Source: an uncultured Aquabacterium sp.
GTDB lineage: Bacteria > Pseudomonadota > Gammaproteobacteria > Burkholderiales > Burkholderiaceae_C
Reading direction: 5' to 3'
DNA: 57,942 nucleotides
NCBI RefSeq assembly: GCF_947366995.1
Contig: NZ_CANBCC010000020.1
Location: forward strand, 1 to 57,942
Part shown: positions 36,612-57,942 of the stretch, piece after piece
Position numbering within the stretch: the stretch's first letter is position 1
Layout: every line of letters begins with the position of its first letter
Made by a program: the position numbers and the translations under genes
The notes under the pieces: generated by a model
Databases searched by the model: none
Told to the model about the DNA's origin: nothing
What the model saw: the letters and a program-made list of their open reading frames with translations, nothing else

Positions 36612-36853
36612 AGCCGACCCTCGAACCAAGGCCCCGCCGGGCTAGAACCCATGGACAAGCGGGGGTGTCTGTGATTGCGGTGGCGAGGTGGACCCCGCCC
36701 GGGTTGAAGACAGGCTAAGTCAGATGCAGAAGGGGCCCGCTTAGGGATTGCGTGGTCTCCCCCCGGACCAAGTGGGAAGAGAAGGCGCTCCCCCTATACT
36801 GACCCGCGCCCTGGCCTCGACCCTCACTCACCTTGCCGACCGCTGCTTTTTCG

Positions 36854-38680
36854 ATGGACGGATCTCGTCTGCTTGCCCTGCTGGATCCCCATGGCCGACT
36901 CAGCCTGTGCCGGCCCGATGGCCCGCTGCTGCAGGGCGTGCCGGTGGTCGAGCAGCGCGCGTGTACAGGACCGGCCCAATTGGCGAGCGCGCTGAAGGCG
37001 GGCTGGGTGGCTCAGGCCGGGCGGCAGGCAGGCCCGTTGCGGCATCTGGCGCTGGCCGTGGCGGGCACGGTGCACGACGACGAAGTGGTGCTGACCCACA
37101 AGGGCTGGCGTCTGTCGGTGTCGGCGCTGCGTGAGGCGCTCGGCCTGGAGACCTTGCTGGTCGTCAACGACTTCACGGCGCTGGCCATGGCGCTGCCCGC
37201 ACTGCCGCCCGAGGCCTGTGTGGCGCTGGGTGGCGGGCAGGCGCAGGCCGGCGGGGTGATCGGCCTGATCGGGCCGGGCGAGGGGCTCGGGGTGTCGGGC
37301 CTCATTCCGGCCGAAGACCGGCGCATCACGCTGGGCAGCGAGGGTGGCCACATCAGCTTTGCACCGGCCGACGACACGGAGTTGGCCATCCTGCAGGCGG
37401 CGTGGCGGCAGTGGCCGCATGTGTCGGCAGAGCGGCTCGTGTCGGCGCAGGGGCTGCGCTTCATCTGGCAGACGCTGGGCACGCGGACCGACACGCCCCC
37501 CGATGCCTTCACCGTGATCGACCAGGCGCACGCCGGTGAGCCGCGCAGTGCGGCAGCCGTCGGCGTGTTCGCCCGCATGCTGGGCACGGTGGCGGCCGAT
37601 GTGGCACTGATGCTGGGCGCGGTCGGTGGCGTGTACCTCGGTGGCGAACTGTTGCCGCGCATGGGGCCGTTGCTGGCGGCCGGCGGCTTCCGTGAACGCT
37701 TCGAAAGCAAGGGTCGTTTTTCAGGCTGGCTGGCGGCCGTGCCCACCGTGCTGATCACGGCGCCCTGGCCCGTGCTCACGGGGCTGGAGGCGCTGCTCGC
37801 CCATCACCTGCGAGACCGCGGTGCGGCGCTGCACGATGGGGGCGTCATGGCCCGCATCAAGAGCCTGCGCAACGAGCTGAGCCGCGCCGAGCAGCGTGTG
37901 GCCGATCACCTGCTGGCCCATCCGCGTGCCTTCATGAACGAGCCGGTGGCCGAGATTGCCCGGCAGGCCGAGGTGAGCCAGCCCACCGTCATCCGCTTCT
38001 GCCGGAGCCTTGGCTTCGAGGGGCTGTCGGATTTCAAGCTCAAGCTGGCTTCCGGGCTCACCGGCACCATCCCGTTGCGGCACAGCCAGGTCAGGGTGGA
38101 CGATGCCGCGCCCGATCTGTCTGCCAAGGTGCTGGACAACACGGTGTCGGCCATCGTGTCGCTGCGTGACGGGCTCAACGGTCAGGCCATCGGGCGTGCC
38201 ATCGCCTTGCTGCAACAGGCGCGGCGGGTCGAGTTCCACGGGGTGGGCAACTCGCATGTCGTGGCGGTCGACGGGCAGTACAAGTTCCTGCGCTTCGGCA
38301 TCCCGGCCACGGCGCACGCAGACAGCGCCCTGCAGGCCATGGCGGCCGATCTACTGGGGCCGGGCGATGTCGTGGTCGCCGTGTCGCGCTCGGGTGCCAT
38401 GCCGGATCTGATCCATGCGGTGGACAAGGCGTTGAATGCGGGCGCCGCCGTCGTGGCAATCACCGCGAGCGATTCCCCGCTGGCACGGCGTGCCACCGTG
38501 ACGCTGGCGGTGGACCACGTCGAAGGCCGCACCGAGCAGCTCTCCATGGTGTCCCGCATCCTGCACCTGCTGATGATCGACGTGCTGGCCGTGGGCGTGG
38601 CCATGCAGCGCCCCGGCTCGGTGAAGTCGCCGTTCGGGCTGCGGGAAGACGCTGCGGCGTGGATCTCGCACGCACGCTGA
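36854..38680 (+). CDS. RpiR/HexR-type regulator fused to a degenerate glucokinase domain
   Basis: A protein of 608 residues from ATG at 36854 (TTG at 36833 possible). Residues 1-325 align by eye with bacterial glucokinases (Glk). The sugar-site residues are kept: N105-D106 in VVNDFTAL, E163 and H166 in SEGGHISF, and the Glu of HVSAERLVS. But the first phosphate motif DxGGTNAR is replaced by an unrelated MDGSRLLALL start, and the second, GTG, reads G-E143-G. From 332 follow an RpiR HTH (EIARQAEVSQPTVIRFCRSL) and a SIS sugar-phosphate domain (VEFHGVGNSHVVAVDGQYKF). Burkholderiales carry known fusions called bifunctional glucokinase/regulator; here kinase activity is doubtful. It probably controls the edd-eda and zwf-pgl-glk operons. 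Confidence 0.85.
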   Translation: MDGSRLLALLDPHGRLSLCRPDGPLLQGVPVVEQRACTGPAQLASALKAGWVAQAGRQAGPLRHLALAVAGTVHDDEVVLTHKGWRLSVSALREALGLETLLVVNDFTALAMALPALPPEACVALGGGQAQAGGVIGLIGPGEGLGVSGLIPAEDRRITLGSEGGHISFAPADDTELAILQAAWRQWPHVSAERLVSAQGLRFIWQTLGTRTDTPPDAFTVIDQAHAGEPRSAAAVGVFARMLGTVAADVALMLGAVGGVYLGGELLPRMGPLLAAGGFRERFESKGRFSGWLAAVPTVLITAPWPVLTGLEALLAHHLRDRGAALHDGGVMARIKSLRNELSRAEQRVADHLLAHPRAFMNEPVAEIARQAEVSQPTVIRFCRSLGFEGLSDFKLKLASGLTGTIPLRHSQVRVDDAAPDLSAKVLDNTVSAIVSLRDGLNGQAIGRAIALLQQARRVEFHGVGNSHVVAVDGQYKFLRFGIPATAHADSALQAMAADLLGPGDVVVAVSRSGAMPDLIHAVDKALNAGAAVVAITASDSPLARRATVTLAVDHVEGRTEQLSMVSRILHLLMIDVLAVGVAMQRPGSVKSPFGLREDAAAWISHAR

Positions 38681-38783: not shown

Positions 38784-39425
38784 TCAGGCCGCGCGCAAGG
38801 TCGAGGCCGCCTGGGCCAGATCGCGGATGGCATTCCAGTCACCCGCCTTCACCAGCGCTGCGGGCGCCAGCCACGAACCGCCCACGCAGGCCACATTGGG
38901 CAGGCTCAGGAACTGAGGTGCGGTCTCAACCGTGATGCCGCCCGTGGGGCAGAACAGGGCGTCGGCAAACGGCCCACCCAGTGCCTTGAGCATGCCGACG
39001 CCGCCGGCCTGCTGGGCCGGGAAGAACTTGAAGTTGGTGAAGCCCCCGTCCAGCGCGATCATCAGCTCGGATGCCGTGGCCACGCCCGGCAGCAGGCCCG
39101 TCGTAGCGTGCTGTGCGTGTTCGATCAGGGCCGGTGTCAGCCCCGGCGACACCATGAACTGCGCGCCGGCCTCGGCCGCGGCTTCCCACTGTGCAGGCGT
39201 GGTCACGGTGCCGGCGGCCACCACGGCCCCGTCCACCTGCTGCGCGATTTCGCGGATCACTTCGATTGCGTTCGGCGTGCGCAGCGTGATCTCGAGCACC
39301 TTGAGGCCGCCTTCGACCAGCGCACGGCCCAGCGGCACGGCGTCTTCGGTGCGGTCGATCACGAGAACCGGGATCACGGGGCTCAGGCGCATGAAGGAGG
39401 CCAGGCCGGGGTTCAGGTTGGGCAT
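38784..39425 (-). CDS. eda: KDPG aldolase
   Basis: A protein of 213 residues. It cleaves 2-keto-3-deoxy-6-phosphogluconate to pyruvate and glyceraldehyde-3-phosphate. The catalytic Glu is in LEITLRTPNA, the Schiff-base Lys in NFKFFPAQQAGG, and the phosphate-binding CPTGGIT and VGGSWLAP segments are intact. Length is exactly that of the family. It starts 52 bp after the edd stop and shares its transcript; a terminator follows. Confidence 0.97.
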   Translation of the reverse strand: MPNLNPGLASFMRLSPVIPVLVIDRTEDAVPLGRALVEGGLKVLEITLRTPNAIEVIREIAQQVDGAVVAAGTVTTPAQWEAAAEAGAQFMVSPGLTPALIEHAQHATTGLLPGVATASELMIALDGGFTNFKFFPAQQAGGVGMLKALGGPFADALFCPTGGITVETAPQFLSLPNVACVGGSWLAPAALVKAGDWNAIRDLAQAASTLRAA

Positions 39426-39477: not shown

Positions 39478-41322
39478 TCAGAAACCGCCGAAGCTCATCG
39501 CGCCCTGTTCTGCGCCGGTGATGGCCTGACGGAAGCCCCCGAACAGCTCGCGGCCTGTGCCCGCCCAGTTGGCGGACAGATCGGCCGTGTCCACCGTGCG
39601 TTGGGCCCATTCGGCTGCAGGCACGAGGGCCTCGAGTGTGCCGGCGTCGGCGTCCAGCCGAATCAGGTCACCTGCGCGCACCTTGCCCAGCGGGCCGCCC
39701 GCCGTCACTTCCGGCGTCATGTGGATGGCAGCAGGCACCTTGCCAGAGGCACCGGACATGCGCCCGTCGGTCACCAGGGCGACCTTGAAGCCCTTGTCCT
39801 GCAGGTTGGCCAGTGTGGGTGTCAGCGAGTGGAGTTCGGGCATGCCGTTGGCCCGCGGGCCCTGGAAGCGCACCACAGCCACGAAGTCGCGGTTCAGCTC
39901 GCCGCGCTTGTAGGCGGCAATGAGTTCGCTCTGGTCGTTGAAGAGCACGGCAGGTGCTTCCACCAGGCGGTTCTCGGGCTTGACCGCCGAGACCTTGATG
40001 ACCGAGCGACCCAGGTTGCCCTTGAGCACGCGCAGGCCGCCATCGGGCGAGAAGGGGGCGCTGACGGTGCTGACCACGCTGGCGTCGCCGCTCTGTGCGG
40101 GCGCGTCCACCCACACCAGATGGTCGCCGTCCAGTTGTGGCAGGCGGGTGTAGGCGCGCAGGCCTTCGGTGCCGCCAGCGACGGTCTTCACGTCTTCGTG
40201 CAGCAGGCCGGCATCCAGCAGTTCGCGGATCAGGAAGGCCATGCCCCCTGCCGCGTGAAAGTGGTTCACATCGGCCTTGCCGTTGGGGTAGACGCGGGCC
40301 AGCAGCGGGGTGATGGTGGAGATCGCATCGAAGTCATCCCAGTCGATGACGATGCCGGCCGCACGCGCCATGGCCACCAGATGCAGCGTGTGGTTGGTGG
40401 ACCCGCCGGTGGCCATCAGCCCGACCAGCCCGTTGACGACGGCGCGTTCGTCGATGACGTGGCCCACAGGGGTGTACTGGCTGCCCAGGCGCGTGAGGCG
40501 CGCAGCCTGGCGAGCGGCTTCTCGGGTCAGCGCGGCGCGCAGTGCGCTGTGCGGGTGCACAAAGGCCGAGCCGGGCAGGTGCAGGCCCATGATCTCCATC
40601 AGCATCTGATTGCTGTTGGCCGTGCCGTAGAACGTGCAGGTGCCTGGGCCGTGATAGGCCTTTTCCTCGGCCTCAAGCAGCTCGTCCTGGCCCACCTCGC
40701 CAGCGGCAAAGCGCTGGCGCACCTTGGCCTTGTCGTCGTTGCTCAGGCCGGTCGTCATGGGGCCGGCCGGCACGAACACCGTGGGCAGGTGGCCGAAGCT
40801 CAGTGCGCCGATCAGCAGGCCAGGCACGATCTTGTCGCACACGCCCAGACACAGGGTCGCATCGAACATGTTGTGAGACAACGCGATGGCCGTGGACATG
40901 GCGATCACGTCGCGCGAAAAGAGCGACAGTTCCATGCCGGCCTTGCCCTGTGTGACGCCGTCGCACATGGCAGGCACGCCGCCAGCGAACTGCGCCGTGG
41001 CACCCACCTCGCGGGCGGCCTGCTTGATCCACTCCGGGAACTCGGCCAGCGGCTGGTGGGCCGACAGCATGTCGTTGTAGGCCGACACGATGGCGAGGTT
41101 GGGGCTGCGTTGTTCGCGCAGCCAGATCTTGTCGCCGGCCGGTGCGGCCGCGTAGGCGTGGGCGAGGTTGGTGCAACCCAGGGCCGAGCGCTCGACCGGG
41201 CCCGTCTGGCCTGCCGCATCGATGCGGGCGAGGTAGGCCGCACGCGAGGCCGCGCTGCGTTCGCGGATGCGGTCGGTGACGGCTTGGAGTTGCGGGTGCA
41301 AGGGGGCAGGGGAGGTGGCCAT
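39478..41322 (-). CDS. edd: 6-phosphogluconate dehydratase
   Basis: A protein of 614 residues from ATG at 41322; the in-frame extension to 41370 is not needed. It dehydrates 6-phosphogluconate to KDPG. It belongs to the IlvD/Edd family, with a [4Fe-4S] cluster whose probable Cys ligands lie in [22 protein letters not shown] and [24 protein letters not shown] and [12 protein letters not shown] are also conserved. It is divergent from zwf, with a 196-bp shared control region holding a perfect palindrome. Confidence 0.97.
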
Positions 41323-41479
41323 GTTGAAGACACGTAGGCTGGCAGAGCACCGAATGTAGCGAAATTTCAATAGCTTTTCCAGTCTGACCCTTCCGACACT
41401 GGATGTTTAAAAGATGCTTTGGCCTTGATGCGAGGGATAACCCGGAACGCACTCTCACGTTTAAGTGGCTTCCGTTGAA

Positions 41480-41492
41480 GTAGTATTACTAC
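41480..41492. promoter_or_regulatory. 13-bp palindrome between edd and zwf (HexR-like operator?)
   Basis: GTAGTA-T-TACTAC is a perfect odd palindrome 26 bp before the zwf start, in the divergent edd-zwf control region. HexR-family regulators bind short A+T-rich palindromes of about this size in the same place in other proteobacteria. The RpiR-type fusion encoded 2.8 kb away is the obvious candidate ligand. No clear -35/-10 pair could be fixed. Confidence 0.6.
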
Positions 41493-41518: not shown

Positions 41519-42991
<1,473 letters not shown>

Positions 42992-43074
42992 TCCCATTCC
43001 CGAGCGTGGCGGTGCGGACGGGCACCGCGATTGCCCGTCATCTGGCCGCCGCTTCACCCTCGGGTCCTGACACC

Positions 43075-43782
43075 ATGCAACTCAATCACCACACCGCTGC
43101 CGACGCCACCACCCTGGCGGCCGATCTGGCGCGCTTCACCGCAGACCACCTGCAGGCCGGCCTCGCCGAGCGCGACCGCGTGCTGCTGGTGCTGTCTGGC
43201 GGCAGCACCCCGGTTCCCTTCTTCGAGGCGCTGAGCAAGCTGCCGCTGGACTGGTCTCGCGTGGTCGTGACCCTGGCCGACGACCGATGGGTGCCGCACG
43301 ACCATGCCGACAGCAACGCCCGGCTGGTGCGTGCCCATCTGCTGCAAGGGCCGGCCGGGGCTGCCACGTTCGTGCCCGTGAGCAGCGAGGCGCCGTCGCC
43401 CGCCGCCGGGCAGCGCGCCATCGAGGACGAGTTGGTCGAGCTGCCGTGGCCGGCCGAGGTCACGGTCTTTGGCATGGGCGGCGATGGGCACACGGCCTCG
43501 CTGTTTCCGCATGCGCCCGAACTGGATGCCGCGCTGGACGACGCTCACGCGCCGCTGACGCTGCCGGTGGGGGCGCCCGCGCAGCCCAACGTGCCGGTGC
43601 CGCGCCTGACCCTCACACGCCGGGCCCTGCTCGACACGCGCTGTGCCGTGGTCCATTGCACTGGCGCGGCCAAGCGCGCCTTGCTGGAGCAGGCGGCGAC
43701 GGCGGGCGACATCGCCGAACTGCCCATCCGCATCGTCTTCCAGCAGGACCGCGTGCCCGTGCACGTCTTCCACGTCGACTGA
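43075..43782 (+). CDS. pgl: 6-phosphogluconolactonase
   Basis: A protein of 235 residues from ATG at 43075; an earlier in-frame start at 43006 is less likely. It hydrolyses 6-phosphogluconolactone to 6-phosphogluconate. The NagB/DevB-type fold shows LSGGSTPVPFFEAL, LADDRWVPHDHADSN and FGMGGDGHTASLFP with the catalytic His. It lies 83 bp after zwf and 34 bp before glk. Confidence 0.95.
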   Translation: MQLNHHTAADATTLAADLARFTADHLQAGLAERDRVLLVLSGGSTPVPFFEALSKLPLDWSRVVVTLADDRWVPHDHADSNARLVRAHLLQGPAGAATFVPVSSEAPSPAAGQRAIEDELVELPWPAEVTVFGMGGDGHTASLFPHAPELDAALDDAHAPLTLPVGAPAQPNVPVPRLTLTRRALLDTRCAVVHCTGAAKRALLEQAATAGDIAELPIRIVFQQDRVPVHVFHVD

Positions 43783-43816: not shown

Positions 43817-44788
43817 ATGTCTGCCAGTTACCCCCGTCTGCTCGGCGATGTGGGCGGCACCAACGCCCGCCTGGCCCTTCAGCAAGCGCCCGATGCCCCC
43901 ATCGAGCACATCGTCAACCTGCCGTGCAAGGACTTTGCCGGCCCCCAGCAGGCGATCGAGCACTACCTCGCGCAGGTGCTGCCGCACACCGGCGGGATGC
44001 GACCGCGCTCGGGCGTGGTCGGCATCGCGAACCCCATCCTGGGTGACCACATCGCGCTGACCAACGCGCACTGGGCGTTCTCGATCAGCGCGCTGCGTGA
44101 TGCGCTGGGCCTGGAATCGCTCCGCTTCCTCAACGACTTCACCGTGCTGGCGCTGTCGCTGCCCGGGTTGCCGGTCTCCGATCTGGTGCAGGTGGGTGGA
44201 ACCGAGCCCATGCCGGACAAGGCCAAGGCGCTGCTGGGTGCGGGCACGGGGCTGGGCGTGTCGGGCCTGGTGCCGGTGCCGGGCACGGGGCGGTGGGTGC
44301 CGTTGGAAGGCGAGGGCGGCCACGTGACGCTGCCCGCCTTCGACGAGGAAGAGGCCAGGGTGCTCAGCGCCTTGCGCGCGCTGCTGCCCGGCCATGTCTC
44401 GGCCGAGCGCGGCGCGCTGTCGGGCCAGGGGCTGCAGGCGCTGTACCAGGCGCACTGCCACCTGGCGGGCGCCGAGGCCAGCGCACTGAGCCCCGCCGAG
44501 GTGACCCAGCATGCGCTGGACGGCAGCGATGCGCACTGCGTGGCGGCGCTCAACACCTTCTGCGCCATGATGGGCACGGTCGCGGCCGACCTGGCGCTCA
44601 CGCTGGGGGCACAAGGCGGTGTCTACATCGGAGGCGGCATCGTGCCCAAGCTCGGTGACTTTTTCCTGCACTCGCCCTTCCGGGCCCGCTTCGAAAGCAA
44701 GGGGCGTTTCGGGGCCTACCTGGCCCGCATCCCCGTGTACGTGATCCACTCGGCCTACCCGGCCCTGATCGGCGCCAGTCGCGCCTGA
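43817..44788 (+). CDS. glk: Glucokinase
   Basis: A protein of 323 residues from ATG at 43817. It phosphorylates glucose with ATP. All motifs are intact: phosphate-1 GDVGGTNARLAL (residues 10-21), the catalytic Asp in LNDFTVLAL, phosphate-2 GAGTGLGVSGL, sugar-site GEGGHVTLP and HVSAERGALSG, and the adenosine region GGGIVPKL. It is about the same length as E. coli Glk (321). It gives a direct comparison with the degenerate domain in the regulator encoded at 36854-38680. Confidence 0.95.
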   Translation: MSASYPRLLGDVGGTNARLALQQAPDAPIEHIVNLPCKDFAGPQQAIEHYLAQVLPHTGGMRPRSGVVGIANPILGDHIALTNAHWAFSISALRDALGLESLRFLNDFTVLALSLPGLPVSDLVQVGGTEPMPDKAKALLGAGTGLGVSGLVPVPGTGRWVPLEGEGGHVTLPAFDEEEARVLSALRALLPGHVSAERGALSGQGLQALYQAHCHLAGAEASALSPAEVTQHALDGSDAHCVAALNTFCAMMGTVAADLALTLGAQGGVYIGGGIVPKLGDFFLHSPFRARFESKGRFGAYLARIPVYVIHSAYPALIGASRA

Positions 44789-47944: not shown

Positions 47945-48046
47945 GCCTGCCCGTGGGGCGGGGTGCACCGCACCAAACTGGTGGCCCGCAACTTGCTCTT
48001 GTCACACGGTCTCTGCACCATGGGTGCAGGCCCTACGGAGAGTCGT

Positions 48047-51000
48047 GTGTCCATCCACGTTGCCCTGAATCACGTCACCCACTACCGCTACGACCGCCCG
48101 GTCACCCTGTCGCCCCAGGTCGTGCGCTTGAGGCCCGCGCCCCACTGCCGCACCCGCATCCTGTCGTACACGCTCAAGGTCGAGCCGGCCGCGCACTTCA
48201 TCAACTGGCAGCAGGATCCGTTCTCGAATCATCTGGCGCGGCTGGTCTTTCCCGACAAGACAGAGGTCTTCAAGGTCACGGTCGACCTCGTCGCCGAGAT
48301 GGCGGTCTACAACCCGTTCGACTTTTTCCTCGAGCCCTACGCCGAGCGCTTTCCCTTCGCGTACGACGCGGCCTCGCTGCACGACCTGCAGCCCTACCTC
48401 GCTCGGGCCGAGCTCACGCCCGCGTTCAAGGCCTTCATCGACAGCATCGACCGCACCGAGGTGCGCACGATCGACTTCCTGGTGGGCCTGAACCAGCGTC
48501 TGCAGCGCGAGATTGCCTACACAGTGCGCATGGAGCCCGGCGTGCAGACGCCCGAGCAGACGCTGACCTTGAAATCGGGGTCGTGCCGCGACACGGGCTG
48601 GCTGCTGGTGCAGGCCTTGCGCCACATGGGGCTGGCGGCGCGCTTCGTGTCGGGCTACCTGATCCAGCTGAAGGCCGATGTGGCGTCGCTCGACGGTCCC
48701 TCGGGCACCGAAGTCGACTTCACCGACCTGCATGCCTGGTGCGAGGTGTTCCTGCCCGGCGCGGGCTGGATCGGGCTGGATCCGACCTCGGGTCTGCTGG
48801 CCGGCGAGGGCCACATCCCGGTGGCCTGCACGCCGGAGCCCTCCGGTGCCGCACCCGTCACCGGCGCGGTGGACGAGTGCGAGGTTGCGTTCGAGCACCA
48901 CATGGCCATCACCCGCATCTACGAATCGCCCCGGGTGACGATGCCCTACACCGACGACCAGTGGGCGGCCATTGGCGCGCTGGGAGAGGCAGTGGATCAG
49001 CAACTGAGCCAGGGGGATGTGCGCCTGACCATGGGGGGCGAGCCGACCTTCGTGTCGGTGGATGACCGCGATGGCGCCGAGTGGAACACCGACGCGCTGG
49101 GCCCCACCAAGCGCGGCCTGGCCACCGAGCTGGTGCACAAGCTGCGCGCCCGGTATGGCGACGGCGGCTTTCTGCATTTCGGGCAGGGCAAGTGGTATCC
49201 GGGCGAGCAACTGCCGCGCTGGGCGCTCTCCATCTTCTGGCGCGCCGATGGCCAGCCGTGCTGGCATGACGCCAGCCTGTTTGCCGACGAGCGCCACGCA
49301 CCGCGCTACACCACGGACGACGCGCAGCGCTTCATCGAGGCGTTGAGCAACAAGCTGGGCGTCGGCACGGCGCACATCCAGACCGGCTACGAGGACACCT
49401 GGTACTACCTGTGGCGCGAACGCCGTCTCCCGGTCAACGTCGACCCGCTGGAGGCCCGGCTGGACGATGAACTGGAGCGCGTGCGCTTGCGGCGCGTGTT
49501 CGGCCAGGGACTGGACCACCGCGTGGGCTATGTCCTGCCGCTCAAGCGCGACGAAGGTGTCGGCATGGCGGGCCCGAAATGGGTGACCGGGCCGTGGTTC
49601 TTCCGGGACGAGCGGATGTACCTGGTGCCCGGCGATTCGCCGATGGGCTACCGCCTGCCGCTGGATTCGCTGCCGTGGGTAAGCGAGGCCGACTACCCCT
49701 ATGTGCACGCGCACGATCCGTTCGCGCCGAAGGCCCCGCTGGCCGAGGCGTCTGCGCTGCGCGCGCAGTATGCGGCCCATCAGGTGGGCGGCGGCTTTGC
49801 GCAGGGCGGGGCGGTGTCCGTTCAGGGGCAGGCTGCCGAGGGGGCAAGCGGGCGCGGCGTGGGGGGCGAGTGGGGGCATCTACCGGCCAATCCGGCGACC
49901 GGGGCAGCAGGCTCCAGCACTGGGCCCGATGGCGACACGGCCCGCATGCCCGCCCGCCATGAGTCGGCACACTGGATCACGCGCACGGCGCTGTGCGTCG
50001 AGGTGCGCAACCCCGACCGCGCCAATGGCCCGAAGGTCGAGTCGGCGGGACAGGGCGGTGGCGTCATGTACGTGTTCATGCCGCCGCTGAGCAGCCTCGA
50101 CGACTACCTCGACCTGCTGGCCGCGGTGGAAGCCACGGCCGCCGAACAGGGCGTGCAGATCGTGCTGGAAGGCTACCCGCCGCCGCGCGATGTGCGCCTG
50201 AAGGTGCTGCAGGTCACGCCCGATCCTGGCGTGATCGAGGTGAACATCCACCCGGCTTCGAACTGGGCCGAGCTGGTGGACCACACCGAGTACCTGTACG
50301 AGGCCGCGCACCAGACCCGCCTGTCGACCGAGAAGTTCATGGTCGATGGCCGGCACACGGGCACGGGTGGGGGCAATCACTTCGTGCTGGGCGGGGCCAC
50401 GCCGGCCGACAGTCCCTTCCTGCGTCGGCCCGATCTGTTGCCGTCACTGCTGACCTTCTGGCACAACCACCCGTCGCTGTCCTACCTGTTCTCGGGCCTG
50501 TTCATCGGGCCCACCAGCCAGGCGCCGCGCATCGACGAGGCCCGTCAGGATCAGGTCTACGAGATGGAGGTGGGGCTCAAGGAAATCGAGCGCCAGATGG
50601 GCGTGTGGGGCCAGTGCCCGCCGTGGCTCATCGACCGCATGCTGCGCAACCTGCTGATCGACGCGACAGGCAACACGCACCGCAGCGAGTTCTGCATCGA
50701 CAAGCTGTATTCGCCCGACGGCCCCACCGGCCGGCTGGGGCTGCTGGAGCTGCGCGCCTTCGAGATGCCGCCCCATGCGCGCATGAGCCTGGTGCAGCAG
50801 TTGCTGTTGCGTGCGCTGGTGGCCTGGTTCTGGCGTGAGCCGTATCAGGGCCACGGCGCGCAGCGCCTGACGCGCTGGGGCACGGGCCTGCATGACCGCT
50901 TCCTGCTGCCCAGCTTCGTGCAGCAGGACTTTGCCGATGTGCTGGCCGAGCTCGAGATGGCCGGCTATGCCTTCGACCCGGCCTGGTTCGCGCCGCACTT

Positions 51001-51559
51001 CGAGTTCCGCTTCCCCTTCATCGGCGACTTCGCGGCCTCGGGTGTGAAGCTCACGCTGCGTGGGGCGCTCGAGCCCTGGCACGTGATGGGCGAGGAGGGC
51101 GCCATCGGGGGCACCGTGCGCTATGTGGATTCGTCGCTGGAGCGGCTGGAGGTCAAGGCCTCGGGGCTCAATGGCAACCGCCATGTCATCACGGTCAACG
51201 GCCACATCCTGCCGCTGCATCCCACCGGCCGGGTGGGCGAGTTCGTGGCCGGCGTGCGCTACCGGGCCTGGCAGCCGCCCGCCTGCCTGCACCCCACCAT
51301 CGGCGTCGACGCACCGCTGGTGTTCGACGTGGTCGACACCTGGCTCAAGCGTTCGGTGGGCGGGTGCCAGTACCACGTCGCGCATCCGGGCGGCCGCAAT
51401 TACGACACCTTCCCGATCAACGCCTACGAGGCCGAGAGCCGGCGGCTCGCGCGCTTCTTCCGCATGGGCCACACACCCGGCGTGATGAACCTCAAGCCGC
51501 TGCCACCCGGCATCGAGCACCCGCTGACGCTGGATCTGCGGGTGGCCCGACAGGGCTGA
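48047..51559 (+). CDS. Transglutaminase-like / DUF2126 protein
   Basis: A protein of 1170 residues; the GTG start at 48047 has GGAG nearby. It has an N-terminal transglutaminase-associated beta domain (about 1-85, VALNHVTHYRYDRPV), a transglutaminase-like core with C180 in KSGSCRDTGWLLVQAL, H229 in DLHAWCEVF and D245 in GLDPTSG, so the triad is complete, and the very long DUF2126 region (from about 300 to the end). A Gly/Ala-rich insert lies at about 576-640. DUF2126 has been proposed to be a carboxylate-amine ligase-like domain that works with circularly permuted ATP-grasp and alpha-E proteins. It should make or process an unknown peptide. Its TGA is directly followed by the convergent RND stop. 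Confidence 0.92.
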   Translation: MSIHVALNHVTHYRYDRPVTLSPQVVRLRPAPHCRTRILSYTLKVEPAAHFINWQQDPFSNHLARLVFPDKTEVFKVTVDLVAEMAVYNPFDFFLEPYAERFPFAYDAASLHDLQPYLARAELTPAFKAFIDSIDRTEVRTIDFLVGLNQRLQREIAYTVRMEPGVQTPEQTLTLKSGSCRDTGWLLVQALRHMGLAARFVSGYLIQLKADVASLDGPSGTEVDFTDLHAWCEVFLPGAGWIGLDPTSGLLAGEGHIPVACTPEPSGAAPVTGAVDECEVAFEHHMAITRIYESPRVTMPYTDDQWAAIGALGEAVDQQLSQGDVRLTMGGEPTFVSVDDRDGAEWNTDALGPTKRGLATELVHKLRARYGDGGFLHFGQGKWYPGEQLPRWALSIFWRADGQPCWHDASLFADERHAPRYTTDDAQRFIEALSNKLGVGTAHIQTGYEDTWYYLWRERRLPVNVDPLEARLDDELERVRLRRVFGQGLDHRVGYVLPLKRDEGVGMAGPKWVTGPWFFRDERMYLVPGDSPMGYRLPLDSLPWVSEADYPYVHAHDPFAPKAPLAEASALRAQYAAHQVGGGFAQGGAVSVQGQAAEGASGRGVGGEWGHLPANPATGAAGSSTGPDGDTARMPARHESAHWITRTALCVEVRNPDRANGPKVESAGQGGGVMYVFMPPLSSLDDYLDLLAAVEATAAEQGVQIVLEGYPPPRDVRLKVLQVTPDPGVIEVNIHPASNWAELVDHTEYLYEAAHQTRLSTEKFMVDGRHTGTGGGNHFVLGGATPADSPFLRRPDLLPSLLTFWHNHPSLSYLFSGLFIGPTSQAPRIDEARQDQVYEMEVGLKEIERQMGVWGQCPPWLIDRMLRNLLIDATGNTHRSEFCIDKLYSPDGPTGRLGLLELRAFEMPPHARMSLVQQLLLRALVAWFWREPYQGHGAQRLTRWGTGLHDRFLLPSFVQQDFADVLAELEMAGYAFDPAWFAPHFEFRFPFIGDFAASGVKLTLRGALEPWHVMGEEGAIGGTVRYVDSSLERLEVKASGLNGNRHVITVNGHILPLHPTGRVGEFVAGVRYRAWQPPACLHPTIGVDAPLVFDVVDTWLKRSVGGCQYHVAHPGGRNYDTFPINAYEAESRRLARFFRMGHTPGVMNLKPLPPGIEHPLTLDLRVARQG

Positions 51560-54500
51560 TCAGTTCGCCTCGCGCAGCGGGGGCTCTGCTTCACCGGCGG
51601 AGCCCCGTGCGCGGCGCACCAGCCGCTTCGTGCGGGCAATGCCGCCGTCCACCAGGCTGAACACCACCGGGATCACCAGCAGGCTCAGGAACGTGGACGT
51701 GATCAGCCCGCCGATCACCACGATGGCCATCGGCGCGCGGAAGCTCGGGTCGACGCCGATGCCCAGCGCAATGGGCATCATGCCGGCCCCCATGGCGACG
51801 GTCGTCATGATGATCGGCTGTGCGCGCTTGTGGCAGGCATCGAGAATGGCCTCGAAGCGCGACAGGCCCTGCTCGCGTTGGGCGAGGATCACGTAGTCCA
51901 CCAGCAGGATCGAGTTCTTGGTGGCGATGCCCATCAGCATGATCAGGCCGATCATCGACGGCATGGACAGCGCCGTCTGCGTGATGAACAGCGCGACGAT
52001 CGCGCCCGGCACCGACAACACCAGTGCCGTGAGGATGGTCGCGGGCTGAATGAAGTCCTTGAACAGCAGCACGAGCACCACGTAGATGCACAGCACGCCG
52101 GTCAGCATGGCCAAGCCGAAGCTGGCGAAGAGCTCACCCATGGCTTCGGCATCGCCCACCGTGGTCTGCGTGACGCCGGGGGGCAGGTTGCGCAGGCTGG
52201 GCAGGGCCAGGGCCGCCGCTTCCACGGCCCCCAGTGGCTGCTGGTTCAGCTCGATCTCGAAGTTGATGTTGCGCTGGCGGTCGTAGCGGTCGATCTGTGC
52301 CGGGCCGCTGGCCAGGGCGATGGTGGCGACACTCGAGAGTGGCACTGCACCCTGCGCACCGGGCACGGGCAGGCGGCGCAGCAGCTCGATGTCCTCGCGG
52401 GCCGAGGTGGGCAGGCGCACCACCACCGGCACCTGGCGCTGGGCCAGGTTGAGCTTGGAAAGACTCTGGTCGTAATCCCCGGCGGTGGCCACGCGCAGCG
52501 TGTCGGCAATGGCGCTGGCCGTGACGCCCAGGTCGGCTGCCCGCGCAAAATCGGGCCGCACGATGAGTTCGGGTCGCACGAGGCTGGCCGTCGATGTGAC
52601 GTTGCCGATGCCGGGCAGTGTGCGCAACTCGCGTTCGACCTTGGCGGCATGGGCGCTCAACACCTCGCCGTCTTCACCGGCCAGCACGAGGACGTACTTG
52701 TCGTTGGCGCCGCCCAGGCCCACGCGCACCCGGGCGCCGGGCAGGGCCTGCAGGGCCTCGCGCATCTGGCCTTCGATGTCCTGCTTGGTCAGCCCCGGCC
52801 GCTCGCTGCGGTGCGTGAGGTTGACCGTGAGGGTGGCCTTGCTGACCTCGGTGGCCCCGGCGGAGGTGAAGGGGTCTCCACCCGCCTTGCCGGCCCCGAT
52901 CGCCGTGTAGACGAGCTTGACGTTGGCGTTGGCCGCCACGATGCGCCGCGCGTCTTCGGCCAGTTGTTTCGCCTGGGCGAGCGTGCTGCCGGGGGGCAAG
53001 GTCAGCGTGACCTGCGTCTGTGAGAGGTCGTCTGGCGGGAGGAAGCCCGTGGGCAGTCGGCCGCCCATGAAAATGGCTCCGAAGAAAAACCCGATGGTCA
53101 GCAGCACGGTCAGCAAGCGGTGCTTCAGGCACCAACGCGCCCAGCCCAGGTAGCGCGCCATCCAGAAGGGCTCGCGGTGCGCGTGGCGCGGCGGCTTCAG
53201 GATGTAGGCCGCCATCATCGGCGTCAGCATCCGCGCCACCACCAACGAGAAGAACACGGCGATGGCGGCCGTCCAGCCGAACTGCACGAAGAACTTGCCG
53301 GCCACGCCGCTCATGAAGGCCGTGGGCAGGAAGACGGCAATCAGCGTGAACGTCGTGGCGATCACCGCCAGGCCGATTTCGTCAGCGGCCTCCATCGCGG
53401 CCTGATAGGGCGTCTTGCCCATGCGCAGGTGGCGCATGATGTTCTCGATCTCGACGATGGCGTCATCGACCAGCACGCCCACGACGATGGACAGCGACAG
53501 CAGCGTCACGACGTTGACGGTGAAGCCGAACAGGTACATGACCCCGAAGGTGGGTAGCACCGACAGGGGAAGGGCGGCGGCCGCCACGAGTGTGGCACGC
53601 CAGTCGCGCAGGAAGAGGAACACCACGATGACGGCCAGCGCGGCACCTTCGTACAGCAGGTGCATCGAGCCGGTGTAGTTCTCCTTGACCGGATCGACAA
53701 AGTTGAAGGCCTCGGTCACGGCGATGTCGGGGTGCTCCTGTTGCAGTCGGGACAGCGCCTCGCGCACGCCGGCTTCCACCTCGACCTCGCCCGCGCCGCG
53801 CGCGCGCACCACTTCAAAGCCGACCACGGGCTTGCCGTTCAGGAAGGCGGCGCTGCGCGCGTCGGCCACGGTGTCGCGCACGCTCGCCACGGTGTCGAGC
53901 CGCACGCGGCGGCCGTCGGACAGGCTGATCGACATGGCGCCCAGTTCCTCGGCCGACTGCACGGTGGCAATGGTGCGCACAGACTGCTCGGCACCGCCGA
54001 TGTCGGCCCGGCCGCCCGAAGCCTCCTGCTGGATGGCACGCAGCTGGCGCGACACATCGGCCACGGTGGTGTTGAGCGCCAGCAGGCGTGCGGGGTCGAG
54101 CTCCACGCGCACTTCGCGCGTGACGCCGCCCACGCGCGACACCGCCCCCACACCCTTGACCGACAGCAGCCGGCGCGTGACCGTGTGGTCCACGAACCAG
54201 GACAGCGCTTCGTCGTCCATGCGCGGCGAGGCCACGGTGAAGGTCAGGATGGGCAGGCCGGAGAGGTTGATCTTCGAGATGGCCGGATCACGCAGCTCGG
54301 CGGGCAGGTCGGCCCGAACACGTGCCACGGCATCCCGCACGTCGTCCACGGCCTCCTGAATGGGCTTTTCCAGGCGGAATTCCACCGTGGTCGTGGCCTG
54401 TCCGTCCTGCACCGTGGTGTAGATGTGCTTGACGCCTTGCAGGGTCGCCACGCTGTTTTCGATCTTGCGTGCCACCTGGGTTTCCAGTTGGGCAGGCGAG

Positions 54501-54667
54501 GCGCCGGGCAGCTGTGCGGTCACCACCACCGAGGGCAGCTCGATGTCGGGAAAGTTCTGGATCTTCATCCGGCTGAAGCCCATCAGGCCCACCAGCGTGA
54601 GCATGATGAACAGCAGGATGGCCGGGATCGGATTGCGAATCGACCAGGACGAGACGTTGAGGCTCAT
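51560..54667 (-). CDS. RND efflux pump inner-membrane transporter (AcrB-like)
   Basis: A protein of 1035 residues, full length for hydrophobe/amphiphile efflux RND pumps. Twelve hydrophobic helices, two large periplasmic loops, and the proton-relay pair in [15 protein letters not shown] (helix 4). It starts with [20 protein letters not shown], typical of the family. It exports drugs or other amphiphiles using proton-motive force. The adaptor gene lies 10 bp upstream; no outer-membrane channel gene is adjacent. The two-gene operon separates the DUF2126 and ATP-grasp genes. Confidence 0.95.
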
Positions 54668-54677
54668 GGGGTGTCCT

Positions 54678-55811
54678 TCAGCGTGCGGCCGGTGCGCTGG
54701 CCACGACCTTCACCAGGTCGCCCTCGCTGAGAAAGGCGCCGCCCGACACGACCACGCGGTCTTCGGGTTTGAGGCCGCCTCGCACCTCGATGCGGTCGCC
54801 CACGCGGCGGCCCACATCGATCTTCACGGCGCGCAGCCGGTTGCCCGGCCCCACGGTGTAGACGAGGTGGAAGCCCTCGCGCAGCAGCACGGCGCTTTGC
54901 GGCAGAGTCTGCGCCGGGGTGGTGCCCAGTTCGATCCGCCCCGTGGCAAACATGCCGGCCCGTGCGACCCCGCCCGCGGGCACGTCCACATAGACCAGGC
55001 CCAGGCGGTTGCCCGGGTTCAAGGTGGGGGCGACCGTGCGCACCTTGCCGTTCAGTGTCGTGCCACCCGTCAGCGTCAGGCTCACGGGCTGACCGGGTTG
55101 AACGCGTTCCAGATCGACCTGGGGCACTTCGCCGCGCCATTCCAGCCGGCCCTGCCGGATCAGGCGGAACAGCTCCTGACCGGGCTGCACCACGCTGCCC
55201 ACCGTGGCCGGGCGGGCCGAGATCACGCCGTCGTCCGGTGCCAGCACGCGGGTCTGGCTGAGCCGCAGATCGTCGACCGCCAGACGCGCCTTCTGCGCTT
55301 CGACCCGGGCGCGGGCGGTCTGCTCGACGGTGAGGGCCTGCTGCACCTGTTGGGCACTCATGAAGCCCTGCGGCTGCAGCTGGCGGGCGCGTTCGGCATT
55401 CGCCTGGGCTTCGGCCAGGGCCGCTTGCGCTTCCGCGACGGCCGCCCGCGTGGCCGCGGCCTCGGCGCGCACGGTGTCCTGGCGGAACTCGGCCAGCACC
55501 TGTCCACGGCGCACCGTGTCGCCCACGTTGACCAGCACCTGCTGCAGTCGCAGGCCGCTGGTTTCGGCGCCGATGATGGCCTCCTGCCACGCCGCAATGC
55601 TGCCGTCGGCGCTGATCGTGCGTGGCCACGACGCCGCCTCCAGCGAGGTGACGTTGACGCTCAACGCCGCACGGGCGGAACCGGCGCTGGAGGCCGAGTC
55701 TGCAGCGGACGCGCTTTCAGCGGGGTTGGCGGATTCGTCGCGCCCGCAGGCCCCCAGCAGGGTGAGGGTCAGGAGCGTGGCGGACAGGGTCAGGCTGCGG
55801 AGTCGGTTCAT
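54678..55811 (-). CDS. RND periplasmic adaptor lipoprotein
   Basis: A protein of 377 residues from ATG at 55811 with AAGGGAAG upstream. The lipobox LTLLGAC directs lipid anchoring to the inner membrane. The Ser/Ala-rich linker is followed by the lipoyl half, a coiled-coil hairpin (about 105-175, many Ala/Gln/Glu), the second half (LAPDDGVISARPATVGSVVQ) and beta-barrel domains. It joins the RND pump to an outer-membrane channel encoded elsewhere. Divergent from the ATP-grasp gene, with 219 bp between. Confidence 0.93.
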   Translation of the reverse strand: MNRLRSLTLSATLLTLTLLGACGRDESANPAESASAADSASSAGSARAALSVNVTSLEAASWPRTISADGSIAAWQEAIIGAETSGLRLQQVLVNVGDTVRRGQVLAEFRQDTVRAEAAATRAAVAEAQAALAEAQANAERARQLQPQGFMSAQQVQQALTVEQTARARVEAQKARLAVDDLRLSQTRVLAPDDGVISARPATVGSVVQPGQELFRLIRQGRLEWRGEVPQVDLERVQPGQPVSLTLTGGTTLNGKVRTVAPTLNPGNRLGLVYVDVPAGGVARAGMFATGRIELGTTPAQTLPQSAVLLREGFHLVYTVGPGNRLRAVKIDVGRRVGDRIEVRGGLKPEDRVVVSGGAFLSEGDLVKVVASAPAAR

Positions 55812-55992
55812 GGCTTCCCTTGGCATGGTGACGGGCCCTCGACGTGGCCCTTGCCGGCATGTCGCCAGCGAGTGTACGCGGGCGTTTCAACGGGCCCGGT
55901 GCCGTGCGCCGTACCCGCTCCCGCGCGCTGGTCTCACCGGCACGGGTGAACGCGTGGTAAGCCTCTTGCTTGCTTCGTCGACAATGCACATG

Positions 55993-56009
55993 CCGGTTTT
56001 CCCAACCGG
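55993..56009 (+). promoter_or_regulatory. Small hairpin in the leader of the ATP-grasp gene
   Basis: CCGGTT (55993-55998) pairs with AACCGG (56004-56009) around TTCCC, 21 bp before the start codon of the ATP-grasp gene. It may be a regulator site or a leader stem. The rest of the interval 55812-56030 shows nothing else I can support. Confidence 0.3.
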
Positions 56010-56030
56010 TCGCTGCGCCCCTGCCTGCCC

Positions 56031-57900
56031 ATGCCCTCCTCACTGCCCCTCTTTGACGATGTCGACCCTGCTCCTGCCGTGGCGGAGGACCTGCTGCGCC
56101 GGGCTGCCGCCGTGGAGAGCGGGCATCACGACGAACTGCGCGGGCCGGATGGCGGGCTTCGGCCCGCCTGGCAGACGTTTGCAGACCAGCTGGGGGCGCC
56201 GCTGGATGACCTGACCCGCCGCCAGGCCCTGCTGGCCCGTCAGATCAACGAGGACGGCATCACCTACAACGTCTACAACGCCCAGGGCGAGCCCAGCCGA
56301 CCCTGGTCGCTCGAGACGCTGCCCCTGCTGATCGACGCCGACGAATGGCGCGGCCTCGAGCGCGGCATTGCACAGCGCGCCAGCCTGCTGGACCACATCC
56401 TGCGCGACGTCTATGGCCCGCAGTCTGCCTTGAAGGAGGGGTTGCTGCCCCCCGCGCTGGTGCTCGGCCATCCGGGCTACCTTCGCGGCCTGCAAGGGGT
56501 CTCGCCGGTCGGCGATGTGTACCTGCATGTGGTCGCGTTCGACCTGGTGCGCGGGCCGGACGGCGCCTGGTGGGTGGTGTCGCAGCGCACCCAGGCGCCA
56601 TCGGGCCTTGGCTACGTCATGCAGAACCGGCTGATCGTGTCGCGTCTGTTCCCCGAGGCCTACCGCGCACTGAACGTGCAGCACCTGGCCACGGGCTACC
56701 GTCGCCTGATCGACACCGTGACCGAACTGGCCAGCCGTTGCGCCGGCGGCGCCACACCGCGGCTGGCGTTGCTGACGCCCGGCCCCTACAACGAGACCTA
56801 TTTCGAGCAGGCCTACCTGGCGCGCTACCTCGGCCTGCCGCTGGTAGAGGGCGGGGATCTGGTCGTGCGCGACGACACCGTCTACCTGAAGACGGTGCAG
56901 GGCCTCGAGCCCATCCACGGCCTGCTGCGCCGCCTCGACGACGACTTTTGCGACCCGCTGGAGCTGCGGTCCGAGTCGACGCTCGGTGTGCCGGGGTTGC
57001 TTCAGGCTGTGCGCGCCGGCAAGGTGGTGCTGGCCAACGCCCTGGGCACCGGCTTTCTCGAGTCGCCGGCCGTGCACGGCTTCCTGCCCGCGCTGTCCGA
57101 GCGGCTGCTGGGCGAGCCGCTGGCCCTGCCGTCGCTGCACACCTGGTGGTGTGGCGAAGCCCCGGTGTGGCAGCGGGTCCGTGAGGAACTCCAGGCCCAC
57201 GTCATTCGTCCGAGCTTTCCGTATGCGGGCACACCGGGTTTCGGCTCGCCACGCCTGCGCCAGAGCTTCGACGCCATCACCGGCCCCACGCTGACCCCCG
57301 CTGCCCTGCAGACCTGGCGCAGCCGCATTGACCATGACCCCGCGGCCTACACGCTGCAACGCTTCGTGCCTTATGCCCAGGCGCCCGTGTGGAGCGAAGG
57401 GCGCGTGGCGATGCGAGGGGCGTCCCTGCGCGTCTATGCGCTGTCGGACGGGCGCGGCGGCTGGCAGGTGCTGCCCGGGGGCATGACCCGCATTGCCACA
57501 CGCGACGCCGGGCCGGTCTCCATGCAGTTGGGTGGATCGAGCCTCGACACCTGGGTCATGACCGATGGCCCGGTGGACACCTTCTCGATGCTGCCCGCCA
57601 CCGTGAAGCTCGATGAACTGGTGCAGCGGCAGCGCCCCGTGGCCAGCCGCACCGGCGAAAACCTGTTCTGGATGGGGCGCTACACCGAGCGCAGCGAATT
57701 GCAGTTGCGCCTGACGCAAGGGCTGCTGAACCTGCAGTCCGCCGACGACGAGCCCGAGAACGCGGTGCTTGAAGCCCTGTCGACGCTGGCCCTGGCCAAC
57801 GGCCTCGTGCCCCCGGGCACGCCCAGCCTGCGCCAGTCGCCGCGGGTGTTCGAACGCGCAGCGCTGGAGGCGTTGGCCGACGCCCAGGCCGCGCAGGGCG
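56031..57900 (+). CDS. Circularly permuted ATP-grasp / alpha-E protein, 3' end missing
   Basis: The first 623 residues from ATG at 56031; the gene runs into adapter sequence at 57901 so the true C-terminus is lost, and the apparent stop in the adapter is false. The N-terminal part (about 75-500) matches the type-2 circularly permuted ATP-grasp family: ITYNVYNAQGEPSRPW, VSQRTQAPSGLGYVMQNR, LTPGPYNETYFEQAYLAR, GTGFLESPAVHGFLP and RPSFPYAGTPGFG. From about 537 an alpha-E domain starts (SRTGENLFWMGRYTERSE). Together with DUF2126 and transglutaminase-like proteins it is thought to form an uncharacterised peptide ligase system. Confidence 0.9.
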
Positions 57901-57942
57901 AGATCGGAAGAGCACACGTCTGAACTCCAGTCACCGGATAAC
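57901..57942 (+). other. Illumina adapter plus index, not genomic
   Basis: The first 34 bases, starting AGATCGGAAGAGC and continuing ACACGTCTGAACTCCAGTCA to a final C at 57934, are the standard TruSeq read-1 adapter. The last eight, CGGATAAC, occupy the place of the i7 index. All reading frames here are artefacts, including the stop codon at 57921-57923. Confidence 0.97.

Follow-up and report, generated by a model that had tools for sequence, protein, structure and literature searches.

The fusion gene at positions 36854..38680 (forward strand) of the window, by which we mean the whole 57,942-nucleotide stretch analysed here (uncultured Aquabacterium sp., assembly GCF_947366995.1, contig NZ_CANBCC010000020.1), encodes an N-terminal pseudo-glucokinase domain followed by a regulator of the RpiR/HexR type, as judged from its ATG start and profile matches. 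Our analysis suggests that the glucokinase (Glk) domain no longer catalyses but binds sugar, and so serves as an input to a HexR/RccR-like repressor acting on the Entner-Doudoroff genes, a reading to which we assign a probability of about 0.5. Judging from the sequences, the Aquabacterium fusions have very likely lost their kinase activity, and the Glk domain is likely to bind sugar. Beyond this, we infer glucose as the ligand, 2-keto-3-deoxy-6-phosphogluconate (KDPG) as a second ligand, and a coupling between the two.

ATP site and sugar site of the fused Glk domain

The open reading frame (ORF) of the fusion ends with a stop at 38680 and encodes 608 amino acids from the ATG at 36854, or 615 from an in-frame alternative TTG at 36833. 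Matches to Glucokinase, HTH_6, and SIS follow each other within it, which bears out the first-pass annotation of a glucokinase domain fused to an RpiR regulator. The score against Pfam Glucokinase (PF02685) was 250 bits, compared with a curated cut-off of 22.1, with only profile positions 47–313 covered; in the whole-genome search, the match began at profile position 38. The standalone glk gene (43817..44788, forward strand; profile match and alignment), located 5.1 kb downstream of the fusion, matched the same profile from position 1 and retained GDVGGTNAR, NDFT, and GTGLG, so that the intact copy previously reported about 5 kb away does have whole motifs. These two genes, both inside the same cluster, were the only Pfam Glucokinase matches in the genome. 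The Pfam scan of the fusion gave no match to the ROK family (PF00480), and the single ROK match of the genome is located elsewhere.

Residue numbering follows E. coli Glk (glk b2388) unless window numbering is stated. The reference alignment of 50 rows was obtained from 78 standalone ORFs, which were reduced to 58 by length and near-identity and to 49 by omission of nine distant K-type sequences, plus the E. coli protein; a separate set of 73 standalone Glk rows still contains overlapping copies. One of the six Aquabacterium fusions (L095) is cut by a contig end and has no N-terminus, hence N-terminal counts refer to five proteins. Profile match, alignments, AlphaFold model, and Foldseek search together delimited a Glk domain without an ATP-phosphate site at 36854..37822 (forward strand). 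The names of the phosphate and adenosine motifs at the positions below are those that we take to apply in Glk.

Three nucleotide motifs were damaged. The segment aligned to DxGGTNAR, missing from the fused domain as had been claimed, reads LALLDPHGRL in the window protein, and D9, G11, and G12, invariant in the standalone reference (50/50), were found in none of the five Aquabacterium fusions, a contrast too sharp to be put down to chance. G12 alone is weak evidence, being replaced by another residue in 21/78 otherwise intact named fusions (the set is defined below). At the former phosphate-2 motif (37277..37291, forward strand; alignment), GEGLG stands in place of the GTGLG of standalone Glks. 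The GEG for GTG change reported earlier holds for five of the six Aquabacterium fusions and the sixth has GAG, with T137 thus replaced in all of them. A third lesion, absent from the first-pass annotation, was detected in the adenosine motif, where the last glycine (G263) is E or D in 6/6. None of the Aquabacterium fusions therefore has the whole phosphate-1, phosphate-2, and adenosine motifs by which an active glucokinase was recognized.

Two technical causes were considered and rejected. A frameshift or misassigned start that conceals the ATP motif was dismissed because the pattern D-[IVL]-G-[GA]-[TS] was absent from all forward frames, from 600 nt upstream of the ORF to 450 nt inside it, in each of the five dead fusions with a start on the contig. 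A sequencing error specific to the window was dismissed since related genomes carry the same change.

Structure prediction, proposed in the first-pass annotation as a check, yielded a Glk fold. AlphaFold gave a mean predicted local distance difference test (pLDDT) value of 78.6 and a predicted template modelling (pTM) score of 0.55 for the full-length fusion, and a mean pLDDT of 87.5 for the Glk domain alone. In both models, the former phosphate-1 segment (36866..36910, forward strand; alignment and model) forms a strand at residues 5–10, a tight D-P-H-G turn, and a strand at residues 15–19 (numbered from the ATG) in the place of GDxGGTNAR, so that the hairpin appears to be retained and the phosphate loop swapped for a tight turn. 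The best Foldseek match of the Glk-domain model in the PDB was 1sz2, E. coli Glk with glucose (TMq 0.83), and the TMq was 0.79 for the remaining E. coli Glk entry in the list. That the domain is still an active glucokinase with a phosphate site built from other residues would agree with its whole sugar site and catalytic Asp, but is scarcely credible given the three damaged motifs (D9/G11/G12, T137, and G263), the tight turn modelled in place of the phosphate loop, and the intact glk in the same cluster.

The sugar site has fared differently from the nucleotide site. According to the part of PMC13133996 that describes the E. coli enzyme, N99, D100, H160, and E187 contact glucose, and a phosphate beside the glucose is bound by H160, H183, S185, R188, and R286. 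In the window protein, numbered from the TTG, the sugar site consists of N112, D113, E170, H173, and E200, and the neighbouring anion site includes H196, S198, R201, and R295. The catalytic D100 (D113 of the window protein) was retained in 6/6 Aquabacterium fusions together with N99, H160, E187, and E157, which we take to be an additional glucose contact; the statement that the fused domain keeps the catalytic Asp and the Glu and His residues of the sugar site is thus correct for the whole set. The anion-site residues H160, H183, S185, R188, and R286 were likewise retained in 6/6.

We also compared 73 positions conserved at ≥90% in standalone Glks, scored as kept or not kept in the Aquabacterium fusions. 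All nine sugar and anion positions were kept, compared with 0/5 nucleotide positions and 35/64 other conserved positions (Fisher one-sided p = 0.0073; p = 0.014 when the ATP positions were omitted from the comparison). The preserved anion residues would also suit another ligand in the same pocket, namely a different hexose or glucose-6-phosphate, which would occupy the sugar pocket together with the anion site next to it, and feedback of glucose-6-phosphate on zwf would make sense. Nevertheless, the glucose contacts equal those of E. coli Glk, and we regard a different ligand as clearly unlikely.

Regulator half, probable operator, and proposed mechanism

The HTH_6 helix-turn-helix of RpiR type (37841..38056) and the SIS sugar-phosphate domain (38210..38593), both on the forward strand and identified by profile matches, scored above their Pfam cut-offs, which places the protein in the RpiR family; it is the sole PF01418 (HTH_6) match in the 4.0 Mb assembly. 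Against the HexR subfamily model of NCBIfam (NF008451), the fusion reached 218.6 bits with a cut-off of 296 and was therefore classed as HexR-like rather than HexR. Fusions of this kind had been described as annotated bifunctional glucokinase/regulators. Such homologues do exist; however, the window protein scored 699 bits against the corresponding NCBIfam model NF010701, below its equivalog cut-off of 920.

The closest solved regulators were the P. aeruginosa RccR structures 8ju9 and 8k3b, one of which contains KDPG, with 38% identity in the structural alignment. The RccR residues contacting KDPG are given in a section of PMC10810197. Among the seven contacts that could be aligned, S139, R152, S183, and S185 are kept and H148Y, H164A, and S188M are changed; the alignment does not reach K270 and R277. 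S474, S518, S520, and R487 of the window SIS domain thus correspond to KDPG contacts of RccR, and KDPG is a plausible effector of this domain judging from these residues.

The probable operator of the fused regulator is the palindrome GTAGTATTACTAC at 41480..41492, located 26 bases before the ATG of the cluster zwf gene (glucose-6-phosphate dehydrogenase; 41519..42991, forward strand; profile match), which also has an in-frame GTG upstream at 41465. The palindrome occurs once in the genome. Since a reversed control pattern gave 19 matches per strand, the evidence for an operator lies in position and conservation rather than number. A GTAGT-N3-ACTAC box precedes the cluster zwf in 6/6 Aquabacterium fusion loci. 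For 9 of the 36 genomes of the genus that lack the fusion, the fetched sequence around glk contained no such box, even with one mismatch allowed. In the named set, 62/63 loci with zwf in reach (60/61 without the genus of the window) have the box no more than 250 bp upstream of this gene. These loci are largely from Burkholderia and Paraburkholderia and therefore not independent, and zwf is out of reach in 17/80 named loci, which include Derxia and Massilia. The Pseudomonas RccR consensus is reported in an excerpt of PMC5489143 as TGTAGT/ACTACA, from which the window palindrome departs at one of 12 letters. A consensus search found no promoter at the palindrome, and the pattern GTARTNNNNAYTAC had no match.

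These features allow a mechanism to be proposed. The fusion would act as a repressor at the promoter region of zwf-pgl-glk, and probably of edd-eda. Without sugar, it would repress at the zwf palindrome, by analogy with HexR and RccR. A hexose, most likely glucose, would bind the pseudo-kinase and not be consumed, because ATP is no longer held. The resulting domain closure might reach the neighbouring helix-turn-helix via the short linker, while the glucose would be phosphorylated by the standalone Glk of the same cluster, whose motifs are intact. Rising flux would then increase the Entner-Doudoroff sugar phosphate, whose binding to the SIS domain may keep the switch open.

Distribution, history, and selection

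The fusion was present in 6/42 genomes of the window's genus and, uninterrupted, in 85/399 genomes of the family sample. The alignment of 90 fusions comprised these 85 and five further cases from the genus, and did not include two genomes in which the fusion is in split frames (G160) or cut by a contig end (G171). In G160, the Glk and RpiR parts occupy separate frames (G160:C135:13475-15141, L114), which may be a genuine split or an artefact of assembly; another genome of the same genus, G036, has a single ORF at this place.

The 90 fusions fell into six dead Aquabacterium proteins, 19 with the catalytic Asp100 replaced by Asn (NNFT/NNYT; hereafter the D100N clade), and 65 others. The D100N clade (L006, L007, L011, L012, L015, L019, L021, L124, L207-L211, L213-L215, L217, L220, and L221) kept the phosphate-1 loop, as GATY in the 18 members with a visible N-terminus, and retained T137 in 17 and N99, E157, H160, and E187 in 19/19. 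Among the 65 others, 49 have GGTY or GGTF, D9 is lost in L102 and L110, and two have no visible N-terminus. Lone fusions with other phosphate-1 damage (L102, L103, L109, L110, L246, and L248) are perhaps further kinase losses.

For comparison outside the sample, we used the named set, the best 80 of at least 578 relatives, from Burkholderia, Paraburkholderia, Trinickia, Massilia, Telluria, Undibacterium, Derxia, Aromatoleum/Azoarcus, and some metagenome-assembled genomes. Two of these (L126 and L127) belong to the window's genus and were omitted, leaving 78, and L170 and L199 contributed one fusion each; in the latter two genomes (Massilia), two Glk-RpiR fusion genes are located close together. 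D9, G11, T137, D100, and G263 were retained in 78/78. The idea that motif loss is general to Glk-RpiR fusions was therefore rejected. Whether the loss is clade-wide had been raised as a check; it extends to all Aquabacterium fusions found but is not general, and the D100N clade lost catalysis differently.

The dead fusions checked are accompanied by another Glk. A standalone glk with intact motifs was found in all six Aquabacterium fusion genomes, the eight of 19 D100N genomes that were covered have two or three Glk matches each, and a second Glk gene was present in 14/14 checked genomes with a dead fusion. Among 40 named genomes, two of them from the window's genus, the fusion was the only Pfam Glucokinase match in 20 and was intact there.

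Within the family, the SIS Ser corresponding to RccR S139 was kept in 25/27 kinase-dead fusions, compared with 1/61 of those having D9 and D100 (56 have Tyr), in a count that omits two fusions with unseen N-termini. The 65 remaining family fusions show the reverse of the kinase-dead clades, with this phosphate-site Ser replaced by Tyr in 58/65 and D100 kept in 65/65; in the named set, the Ser was present in 75/78 together with D9, T137, and D100. We tentatively propose, as a possible but doubtful scenario, that a bifunctional ancestor, combining an active glucokinase with a phosphosugar-responsive repressor, was divided in opposite ways. The Aquabacterium and D100N clades would have lost the kinase by different lesions, become sensors of free sugar, and kept the SIS phosphate site, which would make them true two-input regulators (free sugar and Entner-Doudoroff product), while the main family clade would have kept the kinase, with the SIS Ser changed to Tyr. 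This pattern comes from perhaps two or three independent events, and the Tyr might mean a different ligand rather than none.

A tree built from 46 selected fusions placed the dead Aquabacterium proteins in one clade (four rows, 100/100) and the D100N proteins in another (nine rows, 100/100). The Aquabacterium clade grouped with Aromatoleum (91/86) and Derxia/SZAS-77 (93/97) with moderate, unstarred support, which is only a hint of a transfer of the fusion into Aquabacterium. The approximately unbiased (AU) test neither supported nor rejected a sister relationship of the Aquabacterium and D100N clades (p = 0.194), and placement of the Aquabacterium clade with the rest of the family gave p = 0.0525, for groups named after the tree had been seen. 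Even if the two clades are sisters, their lesions differ, because D100 survives in the Aquabacterium fusions, which have no ATP site, and the ATP loop survives in the D100N fusions; a common origin of the dead clades via D100N would need a reversal.

Nonsynonymous to synonymous substitution ratios (dN/dS) were calculated for pairs with dS of 0.25–1.3, up to 60 per group; the dead clade was represented by 10 pairs of five genomes. Its median dN/dS values were 0.565 for the N-lobe, 0.255 for the Glk core, 0.139 for the HTH domain, and 0.104 for the SIS domain. The Glk core is thus under purifying selection, weaker than that on the neighbouring enzyme, and the ATP lobe drifts most. The match was uninterrupted and without a stop in 6/6 Aquabacterium fusions (one cut by a contig end), with identity in the clade down to 68%. 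An additional observation concerned L094 and L095 (genomes G235 and G205), for which dS was 0.046 in the SIS half and 0.66 in the Glk half, perhaps as a result of a recombination mosaic.

Several results weigh against a sugar-binding Glk domain. The five sugar positions by themselves gave p = 0.07, and the same value was obtained in the C-lobe only (sugar and anion 7/7, others 29/44). Retention was not preferential in the D100N clade (7/9 versus 53/64, p = 0.8, eight rows), whose anion-site H183 is Arg in 10/19. The small lobe is eroded: N76, which sits in a loop of Glk that moves upon glucose binding according to a passage of PMC13133996, is H, Q, or V in 5/5 Aquabacterium fusions, and Y48 and L49, conserved in standalone Glks, are changed as well. 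The standalone glk core of the same genomes is more constrained (dN/dS of 0.09–0.21 over pairs), and dN(Glk)/dN(SIS) of the dead clade, 3.2, was the highest of four groups (1.1 in the D100N clade, 0.9 in other family fusions, and 1.9 in named intact fusions, with 60 pairs each). Moreover, 18/40 named genomes have at least two Glk matches and yet an intact fusion, so that a second Glk is insufficient to bring about the loss. The place of the Aquabacterium clade in the tree is uncertain, and no glucose permease was recognized among the Sugar_tr matches of the window genome, with the top two inspected by eye and ABC importers outside the search.

Part of this evidence, namely the relaxed rate of the Glk half relative to the SIS half and standalone glk, the erosion of the small lobe with N76, and the p values of 0.07 and 0.8, would suit a domain kept only as a scaffold for folding, oligomerization, or contact with the standalone Glk, with no ligand bound; the rate pattern in itself agrees both with a changed role and with a scaffold. 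On the other hand, the sugar and anion residues survived 9/9, compared with 35/64 for other conserved positions, and the D100N clade likewise keeps N99, E157, H160, and E187, so that we consider a mere scaffold unlikely. The high dN(Glk)/dN(SIS) and the occurrence of different lesions in two lineages, plus the single cases, might also indicate a relic, that is, a formerly bifunctional enzyme in the process of losing its Glk half. This is very unlikely in view of the purifying selection on the core, the absence of internal stops, and the range of identity over which the ORF has persisted. A non-catalytic sugar-binding input domain remains the interpretation we prefer.

Gene neighbourhood, known systems, and significance

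The cluster is arranged in the order fusion (forward), eda and edd (reverse), palindrome, zwf, pgl, and glk (forward). On the reverse strand, eda (KDPG aldolase; profile match) occupies 38784..39425 and edd (6-phosphogluconate dehydratase; ORF list and profile match) 39478..41370, the likely start of the latter being the inner ATG at 41322; pgl (6-phosphogluconolactonase; profile match) is located at 43006..43782 on the forward strand. No match to EIIC of the phosphotransferase system (PF02378) was found in the genome (other EIIC families were not searched), so imported glucose would probably arrive unphosphorylated.

A cluster zwf copy at ≥85% identity was confined to the six fusion genomes among the 42 of the genus. 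The window genome carries a second zwf at C81:4610-6073, 58% alike to the cluster copy, and two zwf genes occur in fusion-bearing Aquabacterium. The fusion-free genome G203 also has two, both less than 60% identical to the cluster copy. The supposition that fusion-free Aquabacterium have no zwf was rejected, since 40/42 genomes have some zwf match (one is a fragment of 23 residues). Elsewhere in the window, positions 47963–57923 contain transglutaminase/DUF2126 amidoligase and circularly permuted ATP-grasp/Alpha-E genes with a resistance-nodulation-division (RND) efflux pair between them, and a phage-type integrase with an Arm DNA-binding domain is located at 1927–3204, near the contig end.

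The fusions of the NF010701/PRK14101 type in Burkholderia, Paraburkholderia, and others share with the window protein the domain order, homology along most of the protein (best over 64–594 of the window protein), and the GTAGT-N3-ACTAC box before zwf. They differ in keeping D9 and T137 (78/78 named), which are lost in the clade of the window, with D100 kept in 78/78, and in often being the only Glk match of their genome (20/40 named), whereas the window genome has a second glk. In the portion of PMC12568896 concerned, a Paraburkholderia fusion is termed a bifunctional glucokinase/HexR on the basis of in silico reconstruction. With HexR and RccR, the window fusion has in common the 38% identity to RccR, a similar operator, and the retained phosphate-site Ser; unlike them, it carries an additional Glk domain at the N-terminus, has changes at three of the seven KDPG contacts that can be aligned, and scores under the HexR model cut-off.

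ROK regulators are not known to have a working ATP site. In the ROK repressors Mlc, NagC, and Lmo0178, too, a DNA-binding regulator binds its ligand with a sugar-kinase fold, but the window fusion has a Pfam Glucokinase domain and a C-terminal RpiR regulator with its own effector domain, and Mlc and Lmo0178 ranked lower in the fold search of the Glk-domain model. Yeast Gal3 is a kinase paralogue that has lost catalysis and kept sugar sensing next to an active copy, although it has an unrelated eukaryotic fold and keeps ATP binding. The ROK repressors (PMC4856308 and PMC12696579) are the nearest precedent that works alike, and the former paper describes ROK (PF00480) as a separate family with an N-terminal helix-turn-helix. 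That a regulator should bind its ligand with a sugar-kinase fold devoid of catalysis is thus not new in principle. The new part is that a member of the Pfam Glucokinase family is used in this way and is joined to an RpiR/SIS regulator. None of the matches listed from the open-licence PMC literature dealt with a Glk-RpiR fusion that is inactive (for some searches, the best 25 of 390, 10 of 16, and 10 of 179).

The annotation "bifunctional glucokinase/regulator" is probably wrong for the Aquabacterium and D100N clades, and the fusion should not be counted as a glucokinase in metabolic models without a test. If the proposed reading is true, a single fusion family would show the conversion of an enzyme to a sensor through two distinct lesions, and with intact relatives at hand, these proteins would be a good comparative system for the origin of pseudo-enzymes. 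One repressor would then compare the substrate, free sugar, with the pathway product, a sugar phosphate, and thus weigh supply against flux in a single polypeptide.

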